Program-made: the position numbers and the translations under genes
Shown: positions 5,602-21,538 of the stretch, piece by piece
Position numbering within the stretch: position 1 is the stretch's first letter
Layout: every line of letters begins with the position of its first letter
Assembly: GCF_004118855.1 (NCBI RefSeq)
Contig: NZ_PDKF01000004.1
Coordinates: 707,604 to 771,603 of the forward strand
Reading direction: 5' to 3'
DNA length: 64,000 nucleotides
From: Arcobacter sp. CECT 8983
Lineage (GTDB): Bacteria > Campylobacterota > Campylobacteria > Campylobacterales > Arcobacteraceae
The notes under the pieces: generated by a model
Databases searched by the model: none
The model's input: only the letters and a program-made list of their open reading frames with translations
Told to the model about the DNA's origin: nothing

Positions 5602-7078
5602 TAACAAAAAACAAAATAATTTACTAGATAAAAATATCAAGTTGATGGCAATATCTGCCGTTGTATTAATTGTATTATTTTTATATACTTTATATAAAAG
5701 TAGTGCACATATAGAGTCTGGTTCATACTACTTTGGAATTATCTTTTTACTATTTTTATTAGTTTTTGCAGTATTTGCAAGAATAAAGCAAGATAAAATT
5801 CAAAAGTTTTTAAATAAAAATAGAAAAGAGAATGAAAACAGTTTTTCAACTGAATTAAAACAAGCAAAACAAACATCAGTAGTAAAAGAAGAACAAGAAG
5901 AAAACTCTTCTATAAAAGCAGTTAATTCTGATGTTAGTTTCAATGATGTTGCTGGTATTTCTGAAGTAAAAGCTGAACTTGAAGAAATAGTTGACTTTTT
6001 AAATAAACCAAGCAAATATTTAAAACATGGAGTTAAACTTCCAAAGGGTGTTTTACTTGTAGGACCTCCGGGAGTTGGAAAAACTTTAATTGCAAGAGCC
6101 GTAGCAGGTGAAGCAGATGTGCCATTTTTCTACCAAAGTGGTGCAAGTTTTGTTCAAATATATGTAGGAATGGGCGCTAAAAAAGTTCGTGAACTTTTTA
6201 TGCAAGCAAAGTTAAATGCTCCTTCTATAGTATTTATAGATGAAATAGATGCAATAGGTAAACAAAGAACTGGGAAAGCAAATGATGAAAGAGAATCAAC
6301 TTTAAATGAACTTCTAACTCAAATGGATGGTTTTGAAGGTGATTCAGGGGTTATTGTTATTGCTGCAACAAATAAGATTGAAGTTTTAGATGATGCACTT
6401 TTAAGAGCAGGAAGATTTGATAGAAGAGTTTTTGTAAACCTACCTAATATAGAAGATAGAAAAAAGATTTTAGAACTATACTTAGATAAAAAGCATTATG
6501 AATTTGATCTTGATAGCTTAGCCCATGAAACTTCAGGTTTCTCTTCTGCTGCACTTTCAACTTTAGTTAATGAAGCTTTATTAAATATGATAAAAAGAGA
6601 ATCAAAAGTTGTAGAACAAATTGATATAGATACAGCAAAAACAAAGATAGAGTTTGGTAAAAAACAAGCCCTTCTTTTAGATGACAAACAAAAAGAGATT
6701 TTAGCTATTTATCAAGCAAGTAAAGCTTATATAACAAAATCAAAAGTTTTACTATTTGATGAAAAAGTTTCTATTTTAGACTCTATTTATCCCTCATACA
6801 ATGAACTATTAGAGAATATAAAAAGATATCTTTGTGGTTCAATTGCTGTTGAAGTTATCAAAAATGAAAAATATGCCATAAATAAAGATGACATTAAAAA
6901 AGCCTATAAATTAGCAGAAGATATGAAAGAAGAGTATAAAATGGTTAAAAGCTCTCAAAATATTATTGATGAAGTATCTAACTCTTTAAGATCAACAATT
7001 TCTCAAAATGTAAATGAAATAAATAGATTAAAAACATTAATTTTAGAAAATGAGGTAATTTTAGAAGATGACATTTAA
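5585..7078 (+). CDS. FtsH-like membrane AAA ATPase lacking the protease zinc motif
   Basis: The 497-residue protein looks like FtsH: two N-terminal membrane helices (about 20-38 and 47-66), then an AAA module with Walker A GPPGVGKT (160-167), Walker [12 protein letters not shown] and second region of homology [21 protein letters not shown]. The peptidase-like domain follows, but where FtsH has HEXXH this protein reads IYQASK (about 375-380), so zinc cannot be bound in the usual way. It is probably an ATP-driven unfoldase or chaperone at the inner membrane. I chose the ATG at 5585 (MWQNSNNKK); a farther ATG at 5540 would overlap mtaB by 62 bp. A comparable FtsH-like gene follows mtaB in Helicobacter. 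Confidence 0.88.
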
Positions 7079-7583
7079 ATATTTTTCAGGGTTTTCTTTA
7101 GAAAATGAAAAAGAGCTTTTTGAAGACTATTTAGTTGAAAATGACTTAACAGTTTCTGGATTTTCTTATGGAGCTATAAAAGCTTTTGAATATGCTTTAA
7201 CTACAAAGAGAAGAGTTGATTTACTTCAACTTTTTTCACCTGCATTTTTTCAAACTAAAGATGAAAAGTTTAAAAGAACTCAACTAATGTATTACAAAAA
7301 AGATGAAGAAACTTATTGTAATACTTTTTTACAAAATGTTTCTTTTCCCTCTAAAGTTAATATGAAAGAGTATCATAAAGAAGGGCATGTACAAGAACTA
7401 GAAGAGTTACTTTATTATAAGTGGGATGAAAAAGATTTACAAACTCTTATAGAAAGAGGAACAAAAATAGAAGTATATTTAGGTCAAAAAGATAAAATTA
7501 TTGATACAACAAATGCAAAAGAATTTTTTGAAAAATTTGCAACAGTTTATTATTTAAAAGAGAAAGGACATATTTTAAAATGA
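7068..7583 (+). CDS. bioV: Pimeloyl-ACP methyl ester esterase BioV
   Basis: This 171-residue alpha/beta hydrolase matches what I know of Helicobacter BioV, which cleaves the methyl ester of pimeloyl-ACP to end the pimelate phase of biotin synthesis. The start [12 protein letters not shown] corresponds to the FFSGFGF...NES opening of BioV. The nucleophile Ser33 lies in SGFSYG, an acidic residue in GQKDKIID and the catalytic His in the C-terminal KGHILK. It overlaps the AAA gene by 11 bp and mog by 4 bp, so it is co-translated; the link to its neighbours looks organisational rather than functional. Confidence 0.82.
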   Translation: MTFKYFSGFSLENEKELFEDYLVENDLTVSGFSYGAIKAFEYALTTKRRVDLLQLFSPAFFQTKDEKFKRTQLMYYKKDEETYCNTFLQNVSFPSKVNMKEYHKEGHVQELEELLYYKWDEKDLQTLIERGTKIEVYLGQKDKIIDTTNAKEFFEKFATVYYLKEKGHILK

Positions 7584-8119
7584 GTAATGAAATAGCAAAA
7601 ATTGGAATTATTACAACTTCAGATAGAGCCAGTAAAGGTATTTATGAAGATATCTCAGGGAAAGCAATTGAAGAAACTATGAATGATTATTTAACTTCAC
7701 CTTGGGAACCAGTTTATAGATGTATTGAAGATGATCAAGAAACTATTGAAAATACATTAAAAGAGCTTGTTGATCAAGAAGAGTGTTGTTTAGTAGTTAC
7801 TACAGGTGGAACAGGACCAGCTAAAAGAGATGTGACTCCAGAAGCAACAGAAGCAGTGTGTGATAGAATGATGCCAGGCTTTGGTGAACTAATGAGAGCT
7901 GAGTCTTTAAAGTTTGTACCAACTGCAATTTTATCGAGACAAACAGCCGGACTTAGAGGAAGTTCACTAATAATAAATCTTCCAGGAAAACCAAAATCAA
8001 TAAGAGAGTGTCTAGATGCAGTATTCCCTGCAGTTCCATATTGTATTGATTTAATGGAAGGTCCATTTTTAGAGTGTAATGAAGAGGTTATGAAACCTTT
8101 TAGACCAAAGAAAAAATAG
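7580..8119 (+). CDS. mog: Molybdopterin adenylyltransferase
   Basis: The 179-residue MogA-type protein adenylates molybdopterin, the step before MoeA inserts the metal. Family blocks present are IGIITTSDRASKGIYEDISG, VVTTGGTGPAKRDVTPEAT and INLPGKPKSIRECLDAVFPAVPYCIDL. It is the last gene of the aroB operon and overlaps bioV by 4 bp. The partner gene moeA lies at 35553-36785 inside the formate dehydrogenase region, so cofactor synthesis is split between two operons. Confidence 0.95.
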   Translation: MSNEIAKIGIITTSDRASKGIYEDISGKAIEETMNDYLTSPWEPVYRCIEDDQETIENTLKELVDQEECCLVVTTGGTGPAKRDVTPEATEAVCDRMMPGFGELMRAESLKFVPTAILSRQTAGLRGSSLIINLPGKPKSIRECLDAVFPAVPYCIDLMEGPFLECNEEVMKPFRPKKK

Positions 8120-8125
8120 TTATAT

Positions 8126-8166
8126 CTTTCAATAGACACACTTAGATGTGTCTTTGAAAGCTTTTT
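8126..8166. terminator. Bidirectional terminator between mog and chemoreceptor
   Basis: Arms CTTTCAA-AGACACA and TGTGTCT-TTGAAAG form a long, nearly perfect stem with a short loop, followed by CTTTTT on the + strand and, read the other way, by an A/T-rich tail. It ends two convergent operons. Confidence 0.85.
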
Positions 8167-9409
8167 AATGCTTACCTATAAACTCTGCTTTATTTATATG
8201 TTCCACATTTTTATTTGCAATACCTTTAATCTCTAATGATGTTTCTCTTACGTGTTGAGCGACATTAGCATTTTGTTGTGTTAAAGTATCAATTTGGGCA
8301 ACAGAATCATTTATAAGTGATATACTTTTTTCTTGTTCTTGAGAAGCCTCTACTACTTCTTCAATTAATTTTGTTGTTTTTGATATATTTTCATCAAGTT
8401 CTTGGTATCCTACAATCATTTTATCTGCAATTGTTTTACCTTCATCAGCTTTTATAGTAGCAGATTCTACTAAGTTTTTTATCTCTTTTGCTGCTTCAGC
8501 AGATCTACTTGCAAGGTTTCTAACTTCTCCTGCAACTACAGAAAAACCTTTTCCTGCTTCTCCAGCTGTAGCTGCTTCAACTGCTGCATTTAATGAAAGA
8601 ATGTTTGTTTGAAAGGCAATTTGGTCTATTAAGTTAATAGCTTCATGTACAGCATTTGTAGAATCATTTATTTCATTCATGGCAGTTACTGTTTCAGACG
8701 CAAGTTTTAATCCTCCTGTAATAGAAGTTTTTACATTTTCACCTTGTAAAGACATAGTTTTTGCAGTTTGAGTATTACCTCTTGTTGTATTAGTTATTTC
8801 TTCAATAGCAGCAGAAGTTTCTTCTATAGCTGATACTTGAGAATTAGTAGCTTCAAATAATGAATTTGCATCCTCAAGTAAACCATGGGATTTATCTTTT
8901 AATGAAATACTTGTTTTATATTTTGTTCTAAGGTTATTTGTTATTTCTCCTTTTAAAAAGTTGATACCTTTTGCTAACTCTTGAAGTTTACCGCCTTTGA
9001 ATAAAGTTTCATCAATATCTTTAATATAGTTTTCATTACCATATTCTTTTAATGTATCAGCAATCTCAGTAAGACTTTGATCTAATTTTTCAGTCATTAT
9101 ATTTATTGATTTTGCAATATAGTTTAACTTTTCATTAGATGTTTTTATTACTATTCTATCTGTAGTGTATCCATCAGATAATTTTTCAGTTGAGAGCATT
9201 ATCTCACCAAATAGAGTCAAGTCTTCAGTTTGTTTAGATTCTATCAAGTGAGATAACTCTAAAATTGTATCAATTACCTCTCTTGTTTCACCTTTACATT
9301 TATGATCTATTTTTTCAATAGAGTTTATTTCATCTTTTATGTATTGTTCAATTACTTTGATTGAATCAATTACACCTTGGTTCTTCTTTTTTTTGAGGAA
9401 AGATAGCAT
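8165..9409 (-). CDS. Soluble methyl-accepting chemotaxis protein
   Basis: The 414-residue chemoreceptor has no signal peptide and no membrane helix, so it should be cytoplasmic. The N-terminal half is helical and charged; the C-terminal half is a classic receptor coiled coil with the kinase-contact hairpin ([28 protein letters not shown]... split here for length) and flanking Gln/Glu-rich helices. It lies 10 bp downstream of a PAS-only gene on the same strand. The PAS protein probably supplies the sensing part, like CetB with CetA in Campylobacter energy taxis, except that CetA is membrane-bound. A CheA/CheW partner is not in the window. Confidence 0.9.
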
Positions 9410-9419
9410 AATTTATCCT

Positions 9420-9800
9420 TTATTTTAACGTTTTGTAGAGTTCTTCAGCTTTTTCTATTTCTTTTCTTGTAGGCTTAATTCTTACAGAAATATATCTTTT
9501 TTTTCCATTGGCGGAAGTAGAAGGATAAGCTGTAGCATTTACCCAATAGTAGTTTCCATCTTTAGTTTTATTTTTTACAATACCTTTCCAGATTTTACCT
9601 GCTTGAATTGTTGACCAAAGATCTTTAAATGCGGCACTTGGCATATCGGGATGTCTTACAATATTGTGGGGTTGACCTATTAATTCCTCCTTTGTGTACC
9701 CAGCAATTGTACAAAAGTCTTCATTTGCATAAATAATGATACCTTTTTCATCCGTTTCTGAGACAATCATTGTTTTTTTATCGAGTTCAACTTCATGCAT
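9420..9800 (-). CDS. PAS-domain sensor protein (Aer/CetB-like)
   Basis: This 126-residue protein is one PAS domain. The stretch IIYANEDFCTIAGYTKEELIGQPHNIVRHPDMP and the following W-rich region (DLWSTIQAGKIWKGIVKNKTKDGNYYWVNATA) are typical of Aer-type PAS domains that bind FAD and report redox or electron-transport state. There is no output domain. It precedes the soluble chemoreceptor by 10 bp in the same operon and is most likely its sensor subunit. FAD binding is inferred from family resemblance. Confidence 0.9.
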   Translation of the reverse strand: MHEVELDKKTMIVSETDEKGIIIYANEDFCTIAGYTKEELIGQPHNIVRHPDMPSAAFKDLWSTIQAGKIWKGIVKNKTKDGNYYWVNATAYPSTSANGKKRYISVRIKPTRKEIEKAEELYKTLK

Positions 9801-9942
9801 AATTTATCCTTTGAATTGGAATGTAATTAAATTGTATATTTATAGTAATTAAACTTAGATTATATAAAACAATTAATTGTGTTATTATTTAGTAATATAG
9901 AATGTAATTTTTGATAAAAAAATTATCTTAAGAACATTTTTG

Positions 9943-15697: not shown

Positions 15698-17039
15698 TTA
15701 TAATCTGTCCTATTTTTTCAATTAAAATATTTAAATCATCTTCTAAAATTGTTCTAAAATCCAATAAGAACTTTTCATTTTCAATTCTTCCAATGATATT
15801 GTTTTTTCTAAATAATTTTTCTATCTTGTTTGGTTTATAATCTTTAAATTCAATATTAAGAGCTATTGTAGGTATTTTTTTATTTGGTGTTGTTCCTCCA
15901 CCAATTACAGTTTTTGTTTCAATAGTCTCACAAATACAAAAAGAAGATATTTCTGCTTTTACTTTTTTCGCATTTATTTCTAACTCTTCAAGAGGTTTAA
16001 AAAGCATTTTAAGTGTAGGAATAGAAGCATACTCTTTTAAAAGAATTGATTTTACATTTTCTTCTAAAATAGCAAGGGTTAATTTATCAACTCTTAACAT
16101 CCTTAAAAGTTGATTTTTCTTTAATTGTTCAATATATTTTTTCTTTCCAACTATGATTCCAGCTTGAACTGAACCTAATAGTTTATCCCCTGAAAAGCTA
16201 AGTAAACTTGGGTTATGTTTCATATAATCTAGTACTGAAGGTTCAGACTCATTTAGTCCATAGGGTAAATCAACTAAATGTCCACTTCCCATATCATAAT
16301 AGTCAATGATCTCATTTTTTTGTGCAACTTCAATAATATCTTTAAAAGATACCTCTTGAGAAAAACCTTCAATAGAGTAGTTTGACTTATGTACTTTCAT
16401 TAACATTGAAGTATTTTCATTTATTGCGTTTTCATAATCTCTTAGGTGAGTTTTATTTGTAGTTCCAATCTCTTTTAAAATAGCTCCACTATTACTCATA
16501 ACATCAGGAACTCTAAAACTTCCACCTATCTCTACAAGTTCGCCTCTACTTACTGCTACTTCTTTTCCTTTTGCAAAAGTATTAAGGATTAAAAAAACGG
16601 CACTAGCGTTGTTGTTTACAATTAAAACATCTTCGCAACCAAGAAGTTCACAAAAAACTTTACTTATATGTGAATATCTTTCTCCTCTTTTCCCTTCTTT
16701 TAAATCATATTCTAAATTGTTGTATGAAGTTGCAATATCTTTTGCTTTATCAAAAATATTTTTATCTATAAGACTTCTTCCTAAGTTTGTATGAACAATT
16801 ACTCCAGTTGCATTTATAACTTTTTGAAGTGAGGGTTTTATAATAGTTTCATACTCTTTTAAAATATTTGATATTAATTGTTTTTCATCTATTAAATCAA
16901 TTTTTTTAGCTAAAATATTTTGTCTTAATTCTTCAATTTCTTTTTTTATAATTGAAGTAACTAAAGAGCTTGATAAATCTTTGAAAGTACCATTTGAGGC
17001 TAATTTATCAATTTTAGGAATAGATTTTAGTAAAGTCAT
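15690..17039 (-). CDS. selA: L-seryl-tRNA(Sec) selenium transferase SelA
   Basis: The 449-residue PLP enzyme converts Ser-tRNA(Sec) to Sec-tRNA(Sec) using selenophosphate. An N-terminal helical domain is followed by the aminotransferase fold: NATGVIVHTNLGRSL, NNNASAVFLIL, SRGELVEIGGSFRVPDVM and the PLP lysine in SFSGDKLLGS (Lys286). It is upstream of selB (8-bp overlap), and the tRNA-Sec gene lies directly upstream on the opposite strand, so selA and the tRNA are transcribed divergently from a 59-bp gap. Confidence 0.97.
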   Translation of the reverse strand: MTLLKSIPKIDKLASNGTFKDLSSSLVTSIIKKEIEELRQNILAKKIDLIDEKQLISNILKEYETIIKPSLQKVINATGVIVHTNLGRSLIDKNIFDKAKDIATSYNNLEYDLKEGKRGERYSHISKVFCELLGCEDVLIVNNNASAVFLILNTFAKGKEVAVSRGELVEIGGSFRVPDVMSNSGAILKEIGTTNKTHLRDYENAINENTSMLMKVHKSNYSIEGFSQEVSFKDIIEVAQKNEIIDYYDMGSGHLVDLPYGLNESEPSVLDYMKHNPSLLSFSGDKLLGSVQAGIIVGKKKYIEQLKKNQLLRMLRVDKLTLAILEENVKSILLKEYASIPTLKMLFKPLEELEINAKKVKAEISSFCICETIETKTVIGGGTTPNKKIPTIALNIEFKDYKPNKIEKLFRKNNIIGRIENEKFLLDFRTILEDDLNILIEKIGQIINE

Positions 17040-17098
17040 TTTTACCCTTTTAGAAATTTTTAATCTTTTTATTGTAGAATTTCAATCTAACTAAAGTT

Positions 17099-17198
17099 TG
17101 GGGGGTATGTGACCCTGGTGGGCACCGCAGGCTTCAACCCTGATCGGCGGTTTTTGTGTAAACGCCGCGGTAGGTTCGATTCCTACACCTTCTCGCCA
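17099..17198 (+). tRNA. selC: tRNA-Sec (anticodon UCA)
   Basis: The anticodon loop CTTCAAC carries UCA at 17134-17136. The long variable arm has a 5-bp stem CGGCG/CGCCG (17145-17149 with 17163-17167). The T arm is GTAGG-TTCGATT-CCTAC and CCA is encoded at 17196-17198. The D arm GTGACC/GGGCAC closes a short loop. The 3' acceptor strand (17187-17194) would pair with seven G plus T, but the run at 17100-17105 has only six G, leaving the first pair as U-C. A -10-like TGTAGAAT lies at 17073-17080. It is divergent from selA and convergent with selD. Confidence 0.93.
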
Positions 17199-17223
17199 AA
17201 CAATAATCATTTTTAAATCAAAA

Positions 17224-18258
17224 CTAATAAATTATAATTGGTGTTGCACCTCTAGGAATAACTTCACCTATGATTGTTGCATAGCCGTATGTTAGGTCTT
17301 CGACTCTTTTTACATACTCTTTAGCATCTTTTGGATCCATTGCAATTAAAAGTCCACCTGAAGTTTGTGCATCACAATACATTTGATAGCATTTATCAGT
17401 AGGACACATAATTGTTGTTTTATCTTCAAGATACTTCATATTTCTTTTTGTACCACCTGGAACAACTCCTTGTGCAGCAAACTCTTGGGCTTCAGGAGCT
17501 ACAGGAACAACTCCACAATGAATAGCAAAAGAGTTAAAAGAATTAGTTGCTTCTAAAGCATGCCCTAATAATCCAAACCCAGTAATATCAGTACAAGCAC
17601 TAACATCATAATCTCTTAAAAGTTTTGCTGGTAAATAGTTTAATGTCTCCATAATTTTTATAGCTTCATTTTTTGCACTATCGCTTATTAAATCTCTTTT
17701 TATAGCTGTTGTTAAAATTCCCATCCCTAAAGGTTTTGTAAGAACTAATACATGTCCAATTTTTGCAGTATTATTTCTTAATATTTTATCAGGATGTACT
17801 AATCCAGAAACTGATAAACCATAGTACATTTCAGGTGATTCAATTGTATGTCCACCCATAAGTAGCCCACCACATTCTTGAATCTTTTCATTTCCACCTT
17901 TTAACATTTCTCTTAAAACATCTGTACCATGGTTTTTTCTATCAAAACCTACAATATTTAAAGCAGTTTTAACTTCTGCTCCCATTGCAAAGGCATCAGA
18001 TAAAGAGTTTGCAGCAGCTATTTTCCCATAAATATATGGGTCATCTACAACTGGTGTAATAAAGTCTAATGTTTGAACTAGACCTTCTTCATCATTTAAT
18101 TTATATACAGATGCATCATCATTATTTTCAAATCCAACAAGCACTTTGTCATCATTAGGTACTAAACTACAAATTGTTTGTTTAAGGTCACCCGGACCCA
18201 TTTTTGCAGCTCAACCAGCAGCTTGTACGAATTTGGTTAATTTATATTCGTCACTCAT
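17224..18258 (-). CDS. selD: Selenophosphate synthetase SelD, a selenocysteine protein
   Basis: SelD makes selenophosphate from selenide and ATP. The real gene starts at the ATG at 18258 and reads through an in-frame TGA at 18211-18213, codon 16: KFVQAAG-Sec-AAKMGPGDL. This is the usual active-site loop of SelD, with Sec where other SelDs have Cys, so the product has 344 residues. Downstream motifs (VGFENNDDASVYKL, TPVVDDPYIYGKIAAANSLSDAFAMG, MGGHTIE, TDITGFGLLGHALE) are canonical. Reading from the internal ATG at 18201 would lose the catalytic loop. A SECIS hairpin follows the TGA. SelD therefore needs its own product to be made. Confidence 0.96.
18186..18213 (-). promoter_or_regulatory. Sec UGA codon and SECIS hairpin of selD
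   Basis: On the minus strand the TGA (18213-18211) is followed after 12 bases by the stem GGTC/GACC (18198-18195 with 18189-18186) closing the loop CGGGT. A short stem with a GU-containing apical loop at this distance is the usual bacterial SECIS form read by SelB. Confidence 0.82.
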
Positions 18259-18333
18259 AAAATATTCCTGTATTTTTGTATGGAGAAGTATAGATAAATA
18301 GTAGTTAAAAGTAAGTTCAATATATTTATGTAT

Positions 18334-18348
18334 ACCTATTCCATAGGT
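18334..18348. promoter_or_regulatory. Palindrome ACCTA-N5-TAGGT, selD-proximal copy
   Basis: ACCTAT-TCC-ATAGGT is a perfect 6-bp inverted repeat centred 83 bp upstream of the selD start. Half-sites and spacing equal those of the copy at 18470-18484, which suggests one dimeric regulator binding both. Confidence 0.6.
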
Positions 18349-18469
18349 TATATATTATAGATTTTACTTTCTTATTATTTAAAGCTAGTTTAAGTAAGGT
18401 AAAAATTTTTTTACTATTTAAGTTAATATTTATTTGTAGTTTAATATAGTTACGAAATCAAAAAGCATA

Positions 18470-18484
18470 ACCTAAGGTTTAGGT
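18470..18484. promoter_or_regulatory. Palindrome ACCTA-N5-TAGGT, transporter-proximal copy
   Basis: The perfect inverted repeat AACCTAA-GGT-TTAGGTT spans 18469-18485. Its core ACCTA-N5-TAGGT repeats the selD-proximal site. The centre lies 87 bp upstream of the transporter start. Confidence 0.6.
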
Positions 18485-18563
18485 TGGACATAAAAATTAA
18501 AATGCATGCAAATTAATTTATGACTACATATGCTTCAAATCAATTAAAAAATTTGGAGTACAA

Positions 18564-19409
18564 ATGAAGAAACTACTGTTTATTGCACTTTTATGTGTAA
18601 GTTCACTTTTTGCAAAAGACTTTGCATTTACGGCAATTCCTGATCAGGATGAAACTCAATTAAAAGAGAGATTCTCTTTATTAGCTGATTATTTATCAAA
18701 AGAATTAGATGTTAATGCTAAGTTTATCCCTGTAAAATCATATTCTGCATCAATTGCAGCTTTTAGAAACAATCAAGTTCAATTAGCGTGGTTTGGTGGT
18801 TTAAGTGGTGTTAGAGCAAGACTGATTGTTCCAAATGCTGTAGCAATTGCACAAGGTATTGAAGATACACAATTCCATTCATATATCATTGCAAACACTT
18901 CTACTGGTTTAGAAAAATCTGATTCTATTCCTACTGGTATTGAGGGTAAAACTTTTACTTTTGGTTCTAAAGGTTCTACATCTGGTAGATTAATGCCAGA
19001 ATATTTTATTAGACAAGCATTTAACAAAGCTCCTAATGATATATTTGAAAAAGTAGGATTCTCTGGAAATCACTCTAAAACAATTGCACTAGTACAAAGT
19101 GGTGCATATGAAGTGGGTGCTGTTAACTTTAAAGTTTGGGATAGAGAATTAAAAGAGGGTAAAATTGATACTTCTAAAGTAAAAGTACTTTACAAAACTC
19201 CTGCATATCCTGATTATCAATTCACTGCAAGAGGTGATTTAGATAAAACTTATGGTGAAGGTTTTACAAAAAAATTACAAGAAGCATTAATTGCTATTAA
19301 AGATGAAAAAATCTTAAATGCATTTCCAAGAAGTGGATTTATTAAAGCATCAAATAAAGATTTTGAGCCAGTATTAGAAACTGGTAGAAATATAGGACTT
19401 ATTGACTAA
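18564..19409 (+). CDS. Putative selenate (PhnD-like) ABC transporter binding protein
   Basis: This 281-residue periplasmic protein has a cleavable signal peptide (MKKLLFIALLCVSSLFA) and the fold signatures of the phosphonate/phosphite PhnD family (AIPDQDET, QLAWFGGLSGVRAR, GSTSGRLMPEYFI, VGAVNFKVWDR). A branch of this family found beside selD is annotated as putative selenate-binding protein. The position next to selD and selAB supports uptake of a selenium oxyanion. The ligand is inference; phosphonate or another oxyanion remains possible. No C-P lyase or phosphonatase gene is present. Confidence 0.8.
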   Translation: MKKLLFIALLCVSSLFAKDFAFTAIPDQDETQLKERFSLLADYLSKELDVNAKFIPVKSYSASIAAFRNNQVQLAWFGGLSGVRARLIVPNAVAIAQGIEDTQFHSYIIANTSTGLEKSDSIPTGIEGKTFTFGSKGSTSGRLMPEYFIRQAFNKAPNDIFEKVGFSGNHSKTIALVQSGAYEVGAVNFKVWDRELKEGKIDTSKVKVLYKTPAYPDYQFTARGDLDKTYGEGFTKKLQEALIAIKDEKILNAFPRSGFIKASNKDFEPVLETGRNIGLID

Positions 19410-19410
19410 T

Positions 19411-20070
19411 ATGGCATTTAATCTTGTTAATGAATCAATATTTTATGATGATTTTAAAGCAATTGACTCTTTAACACTAAGTATCCAAAAGGGCGAAAAA
19501 GTAGCTCTTTTGGGTAAAAGTGGAAGTGGAAAGTCAACACTTTTAAAAAGAATGTTTGAACTTCAAAAAGAGTTTTCTTCTTATATTCCTCAAGAGTTAG
19601 GTTTAGTAAATAATTTATCAGTTTTCCATAATGTATATATTTCAAAACTAGATTCAAACTCCTTATTTTATAATATTAGAAATTTTATTGTTCCATGTAA
19701 AAAACAAGTTAATGGGATTTCTAATGTTTTAAAAGATTTAATGCTTAATGATAAGCTATTTACTAAATCTTTGAATCTTTCAGGTGGTCAAAGACAAAGA
19801 GTTGCAATAGCAAGAGCAATATATGGACAAAACTCTATTTTACTTGCCGATGAGCCAGTTTCTGCTTTAGATGAGTTTTTATCAAAAAAAGTTATTGAAA
19901 AACTAAACTCTTCTTTTGAAACTGTAATTTGTACAATGCATAATGTTGATTTAGCAATTGAAAATTTTGATCGAATCATTGGTTTAAAGGATGGTTTTAT
20001 TTTAGTAGATAAACACTCTTCAGAATTAACAGACGAAGATAGAAATAGACTTTATCATGCTACAAAGTAA
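19411..20070 (+). CDS. ABC transporter ATPase, putative selenate importer
   Basis: The ATP-binding subunit (219 residues) has Walker A GKSGSGKS, signature NLSGGQRQRVAIARA, Walker B ILLADEP and switch His in CTMHNVD. It resembles PhnC but is short and compact. The ATG at 19411, two bases after the stop of the binding-protein gene, is the likely start; a TTG at 19402 would add three residues. Its last codons overlap the permease gene by 14 bp, so the three subunits are co-translated. Confidence 0.85.
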   Translation: MAFNLVNESIFYDDFKAIDSLTLSIQKGEKVALLGKSGSGKSTLLKRMFELQKEFSSYIPQELGLVNNLSVFHNVYISKLDSNSLFYNIRNFIVPCKKQVNGISNVLKDLMLNDKLFTKSLNLSGGQRQRVAIARAIYGQNSILLADEPVSALDEFLSKKVIEKLNSSFETVICTMHNVDLAIENFDRIIGLKDGFILVDKHSSELTDEDRNRLYHATK

Positions 20071-21538
20071 AAGTTTAAATGTATCAGTTATATTTTTAGC
20101 TGTTGCAGTTATTTCTATTTTTTTTGCAGATTTTTCAATCTCAACTTTAGAACCTTTTTTAGAATTAAAGAAGTTTTCTCTTGGAATCTTTCAAATAAAT
20201 ATTTTTGAAGTACCAAAATTAATTCCAGCACTTTTTACTACAATTTCAATTGCTGTTGTTGCAATGCTTGTATCTTCTATTATTGGATTTTTCTTAGCTT
20301 TACTTTTTGAAAACTTTTTTATAAGAATAACTTTGGCTTTTACAAGAGCTATCCATGAACTTTTTTGGGCATTAATCTTTTTACAAATATTTGGATTAAA
20401 TACTTTAACTGCACTTCTTGCAATTATTCTACCTTATAGTGCAATTTTAGCAAAAGTTTATGCAGAAATATTACAAGAACATGATACTTTTCCTAAAGAG
20501 TTAAAAGGAAAATCAAAGGTTTCATATTATTTTTATACAAAAATTCCAGATGCATTTGCTCACCTTCTAGCATATACTTATTATAGATTTGAGTGTGCTT
20601 TAAGATCAACTGCTATTTTAGGTTTTGTTGGGATTACAACTTTAGGTTATTATTTGTCTTCTTCTTTTATGCAAGGCTATTATAATGAAGTATGGTTGCT
20701 ATTAATCATGTTTTATATAATCATTGCAACTATTAGGTGGTGGTTAAATAAATATACAGTTATTCCTGTTGTAGTATCATCTTTATTTTATTTAGATGAT
20801 TTTGCAACAGTTAACTTTGATAACTTTATTAGATTTATTACAAAAGACATTATTCCTTACCCAATAAAAACAGATAAACCTTTTAGTGAAGTTATTTTTT
20901 GGTTTGAGTCTATTTTAAAAGAAGAGATAGTAGTTGGAGTTTTTAATACAATTTTATTAACTCAAATTTCATTAGTTTTAACAGCTGTTTTAGCCCTTGC
21001 AACTTTTCCTTTAGTTTCAAAGAAATTTACAAATAAGTTCTTTAGAACTCTTTCTCATGTTTTTTTAGTAATTTTAAGATCTACTCCTGAGTATATTTTA
21101 GCATATCTGTTTTTACAAATCTTTGGTCCATCAATGCTTCCAGCGGCACTTGCTCTTATGCTTCACAATGGAGCAATTATAGGTTTTCTTATGGGACAAC
21201 AAACTGATCAAATAGATTTTAGACTAGATGTAACAAAAAAGAAAAATGAGCTTTATTTATATGAAGTATTACCAAGAATCTATTCTCAATTTTTAGCTTT
21301 CCTTTTCTACAGATGGGAAATAATTATGAGAGAGTCTGCAATCTTAGGAATACTAGGAGTTGCAACGTTAGGTTTCTTTATTGACTCTGCTATTGCAGAT
21401 TTTAGACTTGATAAGATGATGTTATTATTAATAGTAACAGCTATTTTAAATATCTGTATTGATTTGATTTCTAAAAAGAGTAGGGATTATTTGAAAGTAG
21501 AAAAAAGTATAACTTCTTGTGGGTGTGATTTAAAATAA
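20057..21538 (+). CDS. Fused double ABC permease, putative selenate importer
   Basis: The 493-residue protein contains two PhnE-like permease domains in tandem. The first covers about 45-235 (PKLIPALFTTISIAVVAMLVSS; FECALRSTAILGFVGITTLGYYL) and the second about 285-480 (VVGVFNTILLTQISLVLTAVLA; WEIIMRESAILGILGVATLGFFI). Each half carries its own coupling loop, so one polypeptide can form the whole membrane pore instead of a homodimer. It ends with a Cys-containing tail, TSCGCDLK. A strong hairpin terminator follows. Confidence 0.85.
   Translation: MLQSKSLNVSVIFLAVAVISIFFADFSISTLEPFLELKKFSLGIFQINIFEVPKLIPALFTTISIAVVAMLVSSIIGFFLALLFENFFIRITLAFTRAIHELFWALIFLQIFGLNTLTALLAIILPYSAILAKVYAEILQEHDTFPKELKGKSKVSYYFYTKIPDAFAHLLAYTYYRFECALRSTAILGFVGITTLGYYLSSSFMQGYYNEVWLLLIMFYIIIATIRWWLNKYTVIPVVVSSLFYLDDFATVNFDNFIRFITKDIIPYPIKTDKPFSEVIFWFESILKEEIVVGVFNTILLTQISLVLTAVLALATFPLVSKKFTNKFFRTLSHVFLVILRSTPEYILAYLFLQIFGPSMLPAALALMLHNGAIIGFLMGQQTDQIDFRLDVTKKKNELYLYEVLPRIYSQFLAFLFYRWEIIMRESAILGILGVATLGFFIDSAIADFRLDKMMLLLIVTAILNICIDLISKKSRDYLKVEKSITSCGCDLK

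Follow-up and report, generated by a model that had tools for sequence, protein, structure and literature searches.

Two palindromes between selD and a putative selenate transporter operon of an Arcobacter probably belong to a conserved leader RNA

RESULTS

The selD–transporter intergenic region carries two rare palindromes

We analysed a window of 64 kb (the whole stretch of Arcobacter DNA studied here), whose minus strand carries selD, selA and selB and in which selD diverges from an operon for a selenate-type ABC transporter. The genes flanking the intergenic region are as follows.

17224–18258, minus strand: selD in its selenoprotein form (TIGR00476), with the Sec TGA at 18213–18211 and a SECIS fold 3′ of the TGA
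18564–19409, plus strand: gene for the substrate-binding protein of the transporter (TIGR04553, 372.5 bits against a cut-off of 250)
19402–21538, plus strand: genes for an ATPase (PhnC-like, start uncertain) and a double permease (PhnE-like) of the same operon, which fall short of the curated TIGR02315 and TIGR01097 cut-offs

TIGR04553 is a putative selenate family. A tRNA-Sec gene (17100–17194, plus strand; 48 bits against a cut-off of 47) lies between selA and selD on the strand opposite to both, and fdhA with an in-frame TGA is found further downstream.

Two perfect dyads of the form ACCTA-N5-TAGGT lie between the divergent genes: site A, ACCTATTCCATAGGT, at 18334–18348, and site B, ACCTAAGGTTTAGGT, at 18470–18484. 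Their starts are 136 bp apart, and the distances to the start codons are 83 bp for selD (ATG at 18258) and 87 bp for the transporter gene (18564) when measured from the dyad centres, or 75 and 79 bp from the dyad edges. The spacing and the centre-to-start distances given in an earlier note on this DNA were thus accurate. The 2.74-Mb genome has the exact pattern at three places, one of them within an AraC-type ORF, so that sites A and B are the sole non-coding copies. Among 4000 first-order Markov copies of the intergenic region, 2.5% contained two dyads sharing one half-site and none did when the half-site was required to hold at least two G/C, indicating that two exact dyads in one intergenic region exceed chance. 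With one mismatch allowed, a genome scan returned 35 places for the real pattern versus 77 for a backward control, and degenerate matches therefore carry no signal. A genome-wide transcription factor motif was rejected on these grounds, given three exact sites and no enrichment at one mismatch.

Both sites are conserved in an oriented form

Within the genus, the transporter gene was found in 8 of 16 genomes at ≥77% identity; site A is exact in six of these eight and site B in seven. The conserved islands in the genus alignment take in the asymmetric centres of the dyads and, read toward its own gene, each site has the form TAACCTAWGGWWTAGGT-NNN-ACATAAA, with the same orientation and a conserved gene-proximal flank. 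In two loci a yedF-like gene stands in place of the divergent selD, with site A nearly intact in one (L009) and degenerate in the other (L010).

Across the family, taken here as Arcobacteraceae (f1) from records named Poseidonibacter and Arcobacter at matching places, the transporter is present in 27 of 104 genomes and the site B dyad (hairpin P2 below) in all 27, eight within the genus and 19 elsewhere. The half-sites of the latter are ACCTA/TAGGT in 13 cases, AGCTA/TAGCT in four and ACTTA/TAAGT in two; in locus L011, one half has G for A. The stem changes as pairs across the family while the loop stays. GCCTA/TAGGC is found at three more loci of Campylobacterota, which carry the label Sulfurimonas or Sulfurovaceae. 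Our final model of the element (R3, below) detected it in none of 64 loci of TIGR04553-type genes outside Campylobacterota. Outside the window genus (g1), the selD-side copy was observed in a single genome, G085.

The transporter-side dyad looks like one hairpin of a three-way junction

Sequences flanking the dyad pair with one another around P2: AAGCA with UGCUU (P1) and GACAUAAA with UUUAUGAC (P3). From comparison of sequences, site B looks like hairpin P2 of a leader RNA with a three-way junction (P1, P2, P3), lying between a putative −10 box and the start codon.

18445–18450, plus strand: −10 box TATAGT of the transporter operon, conserved in the genus (pattern scan; putative, consensus match only)
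18463–18467, plus strand: P1 5′ strand AAGCA, pairing with 18531–18535 (two-sided changes in 5/5 P1 pairs, 52 fitted sequences)
18469–18485, plus strand: P2 hairpin AACCUA-AGGUU-UAGGUU, the site B palindrome (two-sided changes in 6/6 pairs)
18487–18494, plus strand: P3 5′ strand GACATAAA (alignment A3, model R1)
18517–18524, plus strand: P3 3′ strand TTTATGAC (two-sided changes in 4/7 P3 pairs)
18531–18535, plus strand: P1 3′ strand TGCTT, pairing with the P1 5′ strand
18532–18539, plus strand: anti-Shine–Dalgarno strand GCTTCAAA, overlapping the P1 3′ strand (the pairs of hairpin P4 form in 97.6% of A3 cells)
18552–18559, plus strand: Shine–Dalgarno region TTTGGAGT, paired in the predicted off-state (mean pairing probability 0.91 in 29 leaders)

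Alignment A3 holds 28 sequences and was made with MAFFT only, that is, free of any fitting to a model. In it, 90.3% of cells form standard pairs versus 28.6–42.5% in slid versions, and two-sided changes occur in 6 of 18 pairs, four of them in P2, two in P3 and none in P1; RNAalifold predicted P2 alone from this alignment. Models R1, R2 and R3 were built stepwise, and the larger alignments A4 and A7 were fitted to the model and are consequently biased toward its structure. With that bias, 14 of 18 pairs show two-sided changes among the 44 distinct rows of A4, with 69 such cells versus 14.3 (SD 3.2) after shuffling. In the 52 model-fitted rows of A7 the count is 15 of 18 pairs, a number reached in 4 of 500 shuffles, and 142 cells versus 39.7 (SD 4.7), reached in none of 500; by helix, 5/5 pairs in P1, 6/6 in P2 and 4/7 in P3 are affected. 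An alignment with a misplaced P1 (A6) and one of weak matches (A5) were left out of all counts. The raw sequences also reveal swaps in P1: AGCA/UGCU occurs in the window genus, genus g2 has GUUC/GAAC instead, and family f10 has GGCA/UGCC. The P2 loop contains GGU in 29 of 36 aptamers.

The fold, with its compensatory changes, occupies the position of a riboswitch-type leader, after the −10 match and before the Shine–Dalgarno sequence and ATG. Searching the 4227 families of Rfam 15 gave no match at the element at E ≤ 5 (window positions 17000–20000); 14 variant loci gave none at E ≤ 1, and a known RNA family was rejected.

The selD-side copy appears to be a reduced form

Site A can be drawn as the equivalent hairpin in the selD leader, accompanied by P3.

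18354–18359, minus strand: −10 box TATAAT of selD (pattern scan, consensus match only; not kept in all genus members)
18334–18348, minus strand: P2 hairpin ACCUA-UGGAA-UAGGU, the site A palindrome (four of five pairs invariant in 10 sequences)
18323–18333, minus strand: P3 5′ strand ATACATAAATA (one two-sided P3 pair, in 4/10 sequences)
18288–18300, minus strand: P3 3′ strand TATTTATCTATAC, part of the same P3

In an alignment of 10 selD-side leaders (A8), all cells of P2 are paired (100%), as are 93.6% of those of P3; the single two-sided pair occurs in four sequences that perhaps share one event. By eye, P1 has no conserved partner on the selD side in the window genus, and a GUUCAAA/UUUGGAC pairing is possible in G085. 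The GGU of P2 can alternatively lengthen P3 (GGUAUA/UAUACC), so that two folds compete. Since the −10 match ends 5 bp ahead of the dyad, the selD message may begin at P2 itself. We regard the selD-side copy as a reduced, P2 plus P3 form of the leader RNA whose RNA nature is less secure than that of its transporter-side counterpart; the signal to which it responds is probably the same, and the dyad may also have a role as DNA.

Closing of P1 would compete with a hairpin that hides the ribosome-binding site

The mean pairing probability of 0.91 for the Shine–Dalgarno region, taken over 29 leaders chosen among those at hand, compares with a mean of 0.66 (SD 0.25) in 1160 Markov controls; these values are predictions, and the pairing exceeds 95% of a leader's own controls in just 10 of the 29. 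The predicted partner overlaps the P1 3′ strand in 21/29 leaders, and in genus g2 most partners sit just 5′ of P1. Three of the 29 (L173, L181 and L209) have the Shine–Dalgarno sequence unpaired in the minimum-energy fold or paired elsewhere. Because the P1 3′ strand overlaps the anti-Shine–Dalgarno strand, P1 and the hairpin hiding the start site should be mutually exclusive, and since the minimum-energy fold lies at or below the fold with P1 enforced in 29/29 leaders, the default state would be off. The direction of switching that we infer, with a ligand stabilising P1 and thereby turning translation on, derives from these folding models.

A short ORF, MTTYASNQLKNLEYK, occupies positions 18520–18567 (plus strand) of the leader; its stop overlaps the transporter start, and in some relatives ORF and gene share a reading frame. 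Two other leaders (L197, 9589–9747; L220, 2624–2698) have an additional hairpin 3′ of P1, directly ahead of the start codon; its loop is of the AAGG(U) type, and it may act as an expression platform of another kind.

A central dyad is a candidate site for a shared DNA-binding regulator

Halfway between the two −10 boxes stands another dyad.

18399–18414, no strand assigned: central dyad GTAAA-N6-TTTAC, candidate shared DNA site, with associated box WTTTACYWTTTAAG

The dyad is followed by TTTAAG (18399–18422 in all). An exact match to the associated box occurs once in the window, versus ∼0.09 expected per 64 kb, and 48 times in 1.57 Mb of loci, many of which overlap and were chosen for the element. 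It lies nearly always ∼46 bp ahead of the element in most Arcobacteraceae copies. Its place between the promoters and this fixed distance favour a shared DNA-binding regulator acting at 18399–18414 alongside the RNA elements, an arrangement that we consider possible but less likely than not. The dyad is AT-rich, however, and could belong to the promoter, and it is absent from the four f10 leaders (L198, L222, L223 and L238) and the f4 leader (L202) that were inspected. As a shared site for a DNA-binding regulator the central dyad is a better candidate than sites A and B, though it may instead be a promoter element.

The element accompanies selenium genes in one lineage

Scanning 397 genomes of the class with R3 gave matches in 43 at E ≤ 0.1, of which 34 were kept: 31 Arcobacteraceae together with G317, G418 and G331. 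G018 was kept on two strong matches with its context unread. Nine matches outside the family were not counted: those in G166, G196, G279, G339, G200, G264, G399 and G202 were dropped, being in or against ORFs, lacking a leader position or lacking P2, and the ninth, in G194, had its context unread. A match in G347 was rejected since it lies within an acyl-CoA synthetase gene.

Among Arcobacteraceae, the element was found in 31/34 selB-positive versus 0/9 selB-negative genomes (Fisher P = 3.9 × 10^−7, not corrected for ancestry). The selB-positive genomes without a match are G102, G080 and G069, and G080 has a weak R2 match near selD. In the class sample, selB accompanies the element in 33 of 34 genomes, the exception being G331. 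As selB is present in 247 of the 397 class genomes and most of these have no element, the element appears to be one lineage's solution.

The gene following the element is in some cases that of the PhnD-type selenate transporter and in others that of a Tat-signal protein with a transglutaminase domain (PF01841), paired with a gene for a membrane protein resembling MerT and most often adjacent to selD. This second pair, a candidate selenium uptake pair, lies under the leader RNA in L167, L173, L177, L202 and L238. In two loci (L189 and L200, near 9784–9870) the element is followed by the apparently decayed start of a transglutaminase gene, just upstream of a formate dehydrogenase operon. In G007 the element precedes genes for a double-cubane-cluster reductase (NF040772) and its activase, and in G047 a second look-alike leader, recognised by eye only, stands before the reductase.

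In family f10 the element is found before a PstSCAB-like operon scoring below the phosphate cut-offs. A PstS-like gene is present in 6 of 44 f10 genomes, with the element detected by the model in three and by eye only in three more; five of the six have selD, and none was found in G331. The latter genome has the element (L198) before its PstSCAB-like operon (6384–9588), and neither selD nor selB was found there, selB being judged by cut-off. Either G331 has recently lost selenium use or its transporter has a different substrate. Because the element occurs there with neither gene found, the signal may not be specific to selenium.

DISCUSSION

The comparison yields an oriented element in leader position whose helices (P1 and P2, and P3 in part) show two-sided changes, an overlap of P1 with the anti-Shine–Dalgarno strand, and an association with selenium genes. 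Judged from sequence, the two palindromes are probably hairpins of a conserved folded leader RNA, and we have high confidence in an RNA element over DNA operators. That the element controls translation is likely, and only slightly less so that the leader as a whole, with its three-way junction, works like a translational riboswitch on the transporter operon. With P1 open, its 3′ strand would enter the hairpin that pairs with the Shine–Dalgarno sequence, and translation would be low. A factor that binds at the junction and at the loop of P2 would hold P1 closed, so that this hairpin could not form and translation could proceed. Such a factor would most likely report selenium status, a small selenium or oxyanion metabolite being our first choice and SelB with charged tRNA the second. 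The chances that the ligand is a small molecule are about even, whereas SelB and a different RNA-binding protein are each unlikely candidates.

In the SelB alternative, P2 would be a SECIS-like hairpin bound by SelB with GTP and Sec-tRNA-Sec, and the supply of Sec would feed back on uptake and synthesis genes, as is reported for the leader of E. coli selAB. P2, with at least five pairs and a G-containing loop, fits a description of epsilonproteobacterial SECIS elements (PMC4607533), the loops of the fdhA and selD SECIS elements in these genomes read GGUGU or GGG/CGGGU, and the association of element and selB noted above agrees with such a role. The rules for SECIS elements are lax, however; P1 and P3 are conserved although a SelB hairpin would need neither, P2 folds have no consistent bulged U, and the element occurs in G331, where selB does not rise above the cut-off. 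This reading is improbable, to much the same degree as binding by some other protein. An element acting as a SECIS for recoding, which would closely follow an in-frame UGA, was rejected separately: the element lies upstream of the ATG, and in the window the stretch from the −10 box to P2 contains no ATG.

The earlier note had read the two dyads as operators of one dimeric DNA-binding regulator acting at both promoters, perhaps by looping. The dyads are indeed perfect and rare in the genome, and the selD-side dyad lies 5 bp downstream of the −10 match, a place that a repressor could occupy. Against this stand the shared orientation relative to the genes, the asymmetric conserved loop and flanks, and the compensatory changes in P1 and P3, distant from the dyad, which a dyad operator does not explain. 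Other genera that keep the transporter-side copy lack the selD-side one: in the six loci inspected (L126, L130, L136, L131, L209 and L206) no dyad was seen upstream of selD, G085 being the exception. Orientation, loop asymmetry and long-range covariation led us to reject paired operators as the main explanation, and we give this reading very little weight. Looping is likewise unsupported; the similar dyad-to-start distances follow from both sites being mRNA-leader elements at like distances from their start codons. What survives of the proposal of one regulator for both genes is the link itself, since a shared conserved control element joins selD/yedF and the transporter, whereas the part that placed a DNA-binding protein on the dyads is not supported. 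Least probable is attenuation through a leader peptide: an ATG in P3 at 18520 does open a 15-codon ORF, but the length and frame of the ORF vary in relatives, and genera g19 and g2 lack the ATG.

The leader RNA that we favour resembles translational three-way-junction riboswitches such as the purine and TPP classes: three helices meet, bases of the joining segments and loops are conserved, and P1 is predicted here to compete with a hairpin sequestering the Shine–Dalgarno sequence. Unlike them, our leader has no covariance match among the Rfam families. The leader of E. coli selAB is reported by Thanbichler and Boeck, in 2002 (cited in PMC8124441), to contain a SECIS-like element bound by SelB. 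It shares with our proposed leader RNA a place before selenium genes, a G-loop hairpin and possible feedback by Sec supply, but the element described here is larger, its conserved junction including P1 and P3, lies on uptake and accessory genes, and is also present in one selB-less genome.

Control of selenium genes has also been proposed for LysR_Se and HrsM, which are DNA-binding proteins (PMC5322559), whereas control here looks to be exerted by RNA. FdhTU of Campylobacter jejuni are described as accessory proteins in selenium acquisition (PMC6682613); that system shares with ours the phylum Campylobacterota, selenium acquisition and a yedF-type partner, and differs in consisting of proteins rather than a leader RNA. 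A search of the literature on selenium, selenophosphate, selenocysteine and selenate riboswitches and on SECIS-like elements returned no such bacterial leader by title; a 2017 survey of 224 RNA candidates and the 2002 selAB paper fall outside its scope and could list it.

A conserved RNA on selenium uptake operons, on neighbours of selD and yedF and on redox operons is a concrete candidate for a sensor. We tentatively raise the possibility, somewhat short of an even chance, that it represents a new riboswitch class of Campylobacterota, the first sensor of this kind for a selenium compound (or for some selenium/oxyanion signal), and that it sets the translation of operons for selenium uptake and utilisation. 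One probable regulon would group several uncharacterised genes, namely the transglutaminase/MerT-like pair, the double-cubane reductase with its activase, and the PstSCAB-like transporter, and this probable regulon may serve as a guide to routes of selenium uptake.
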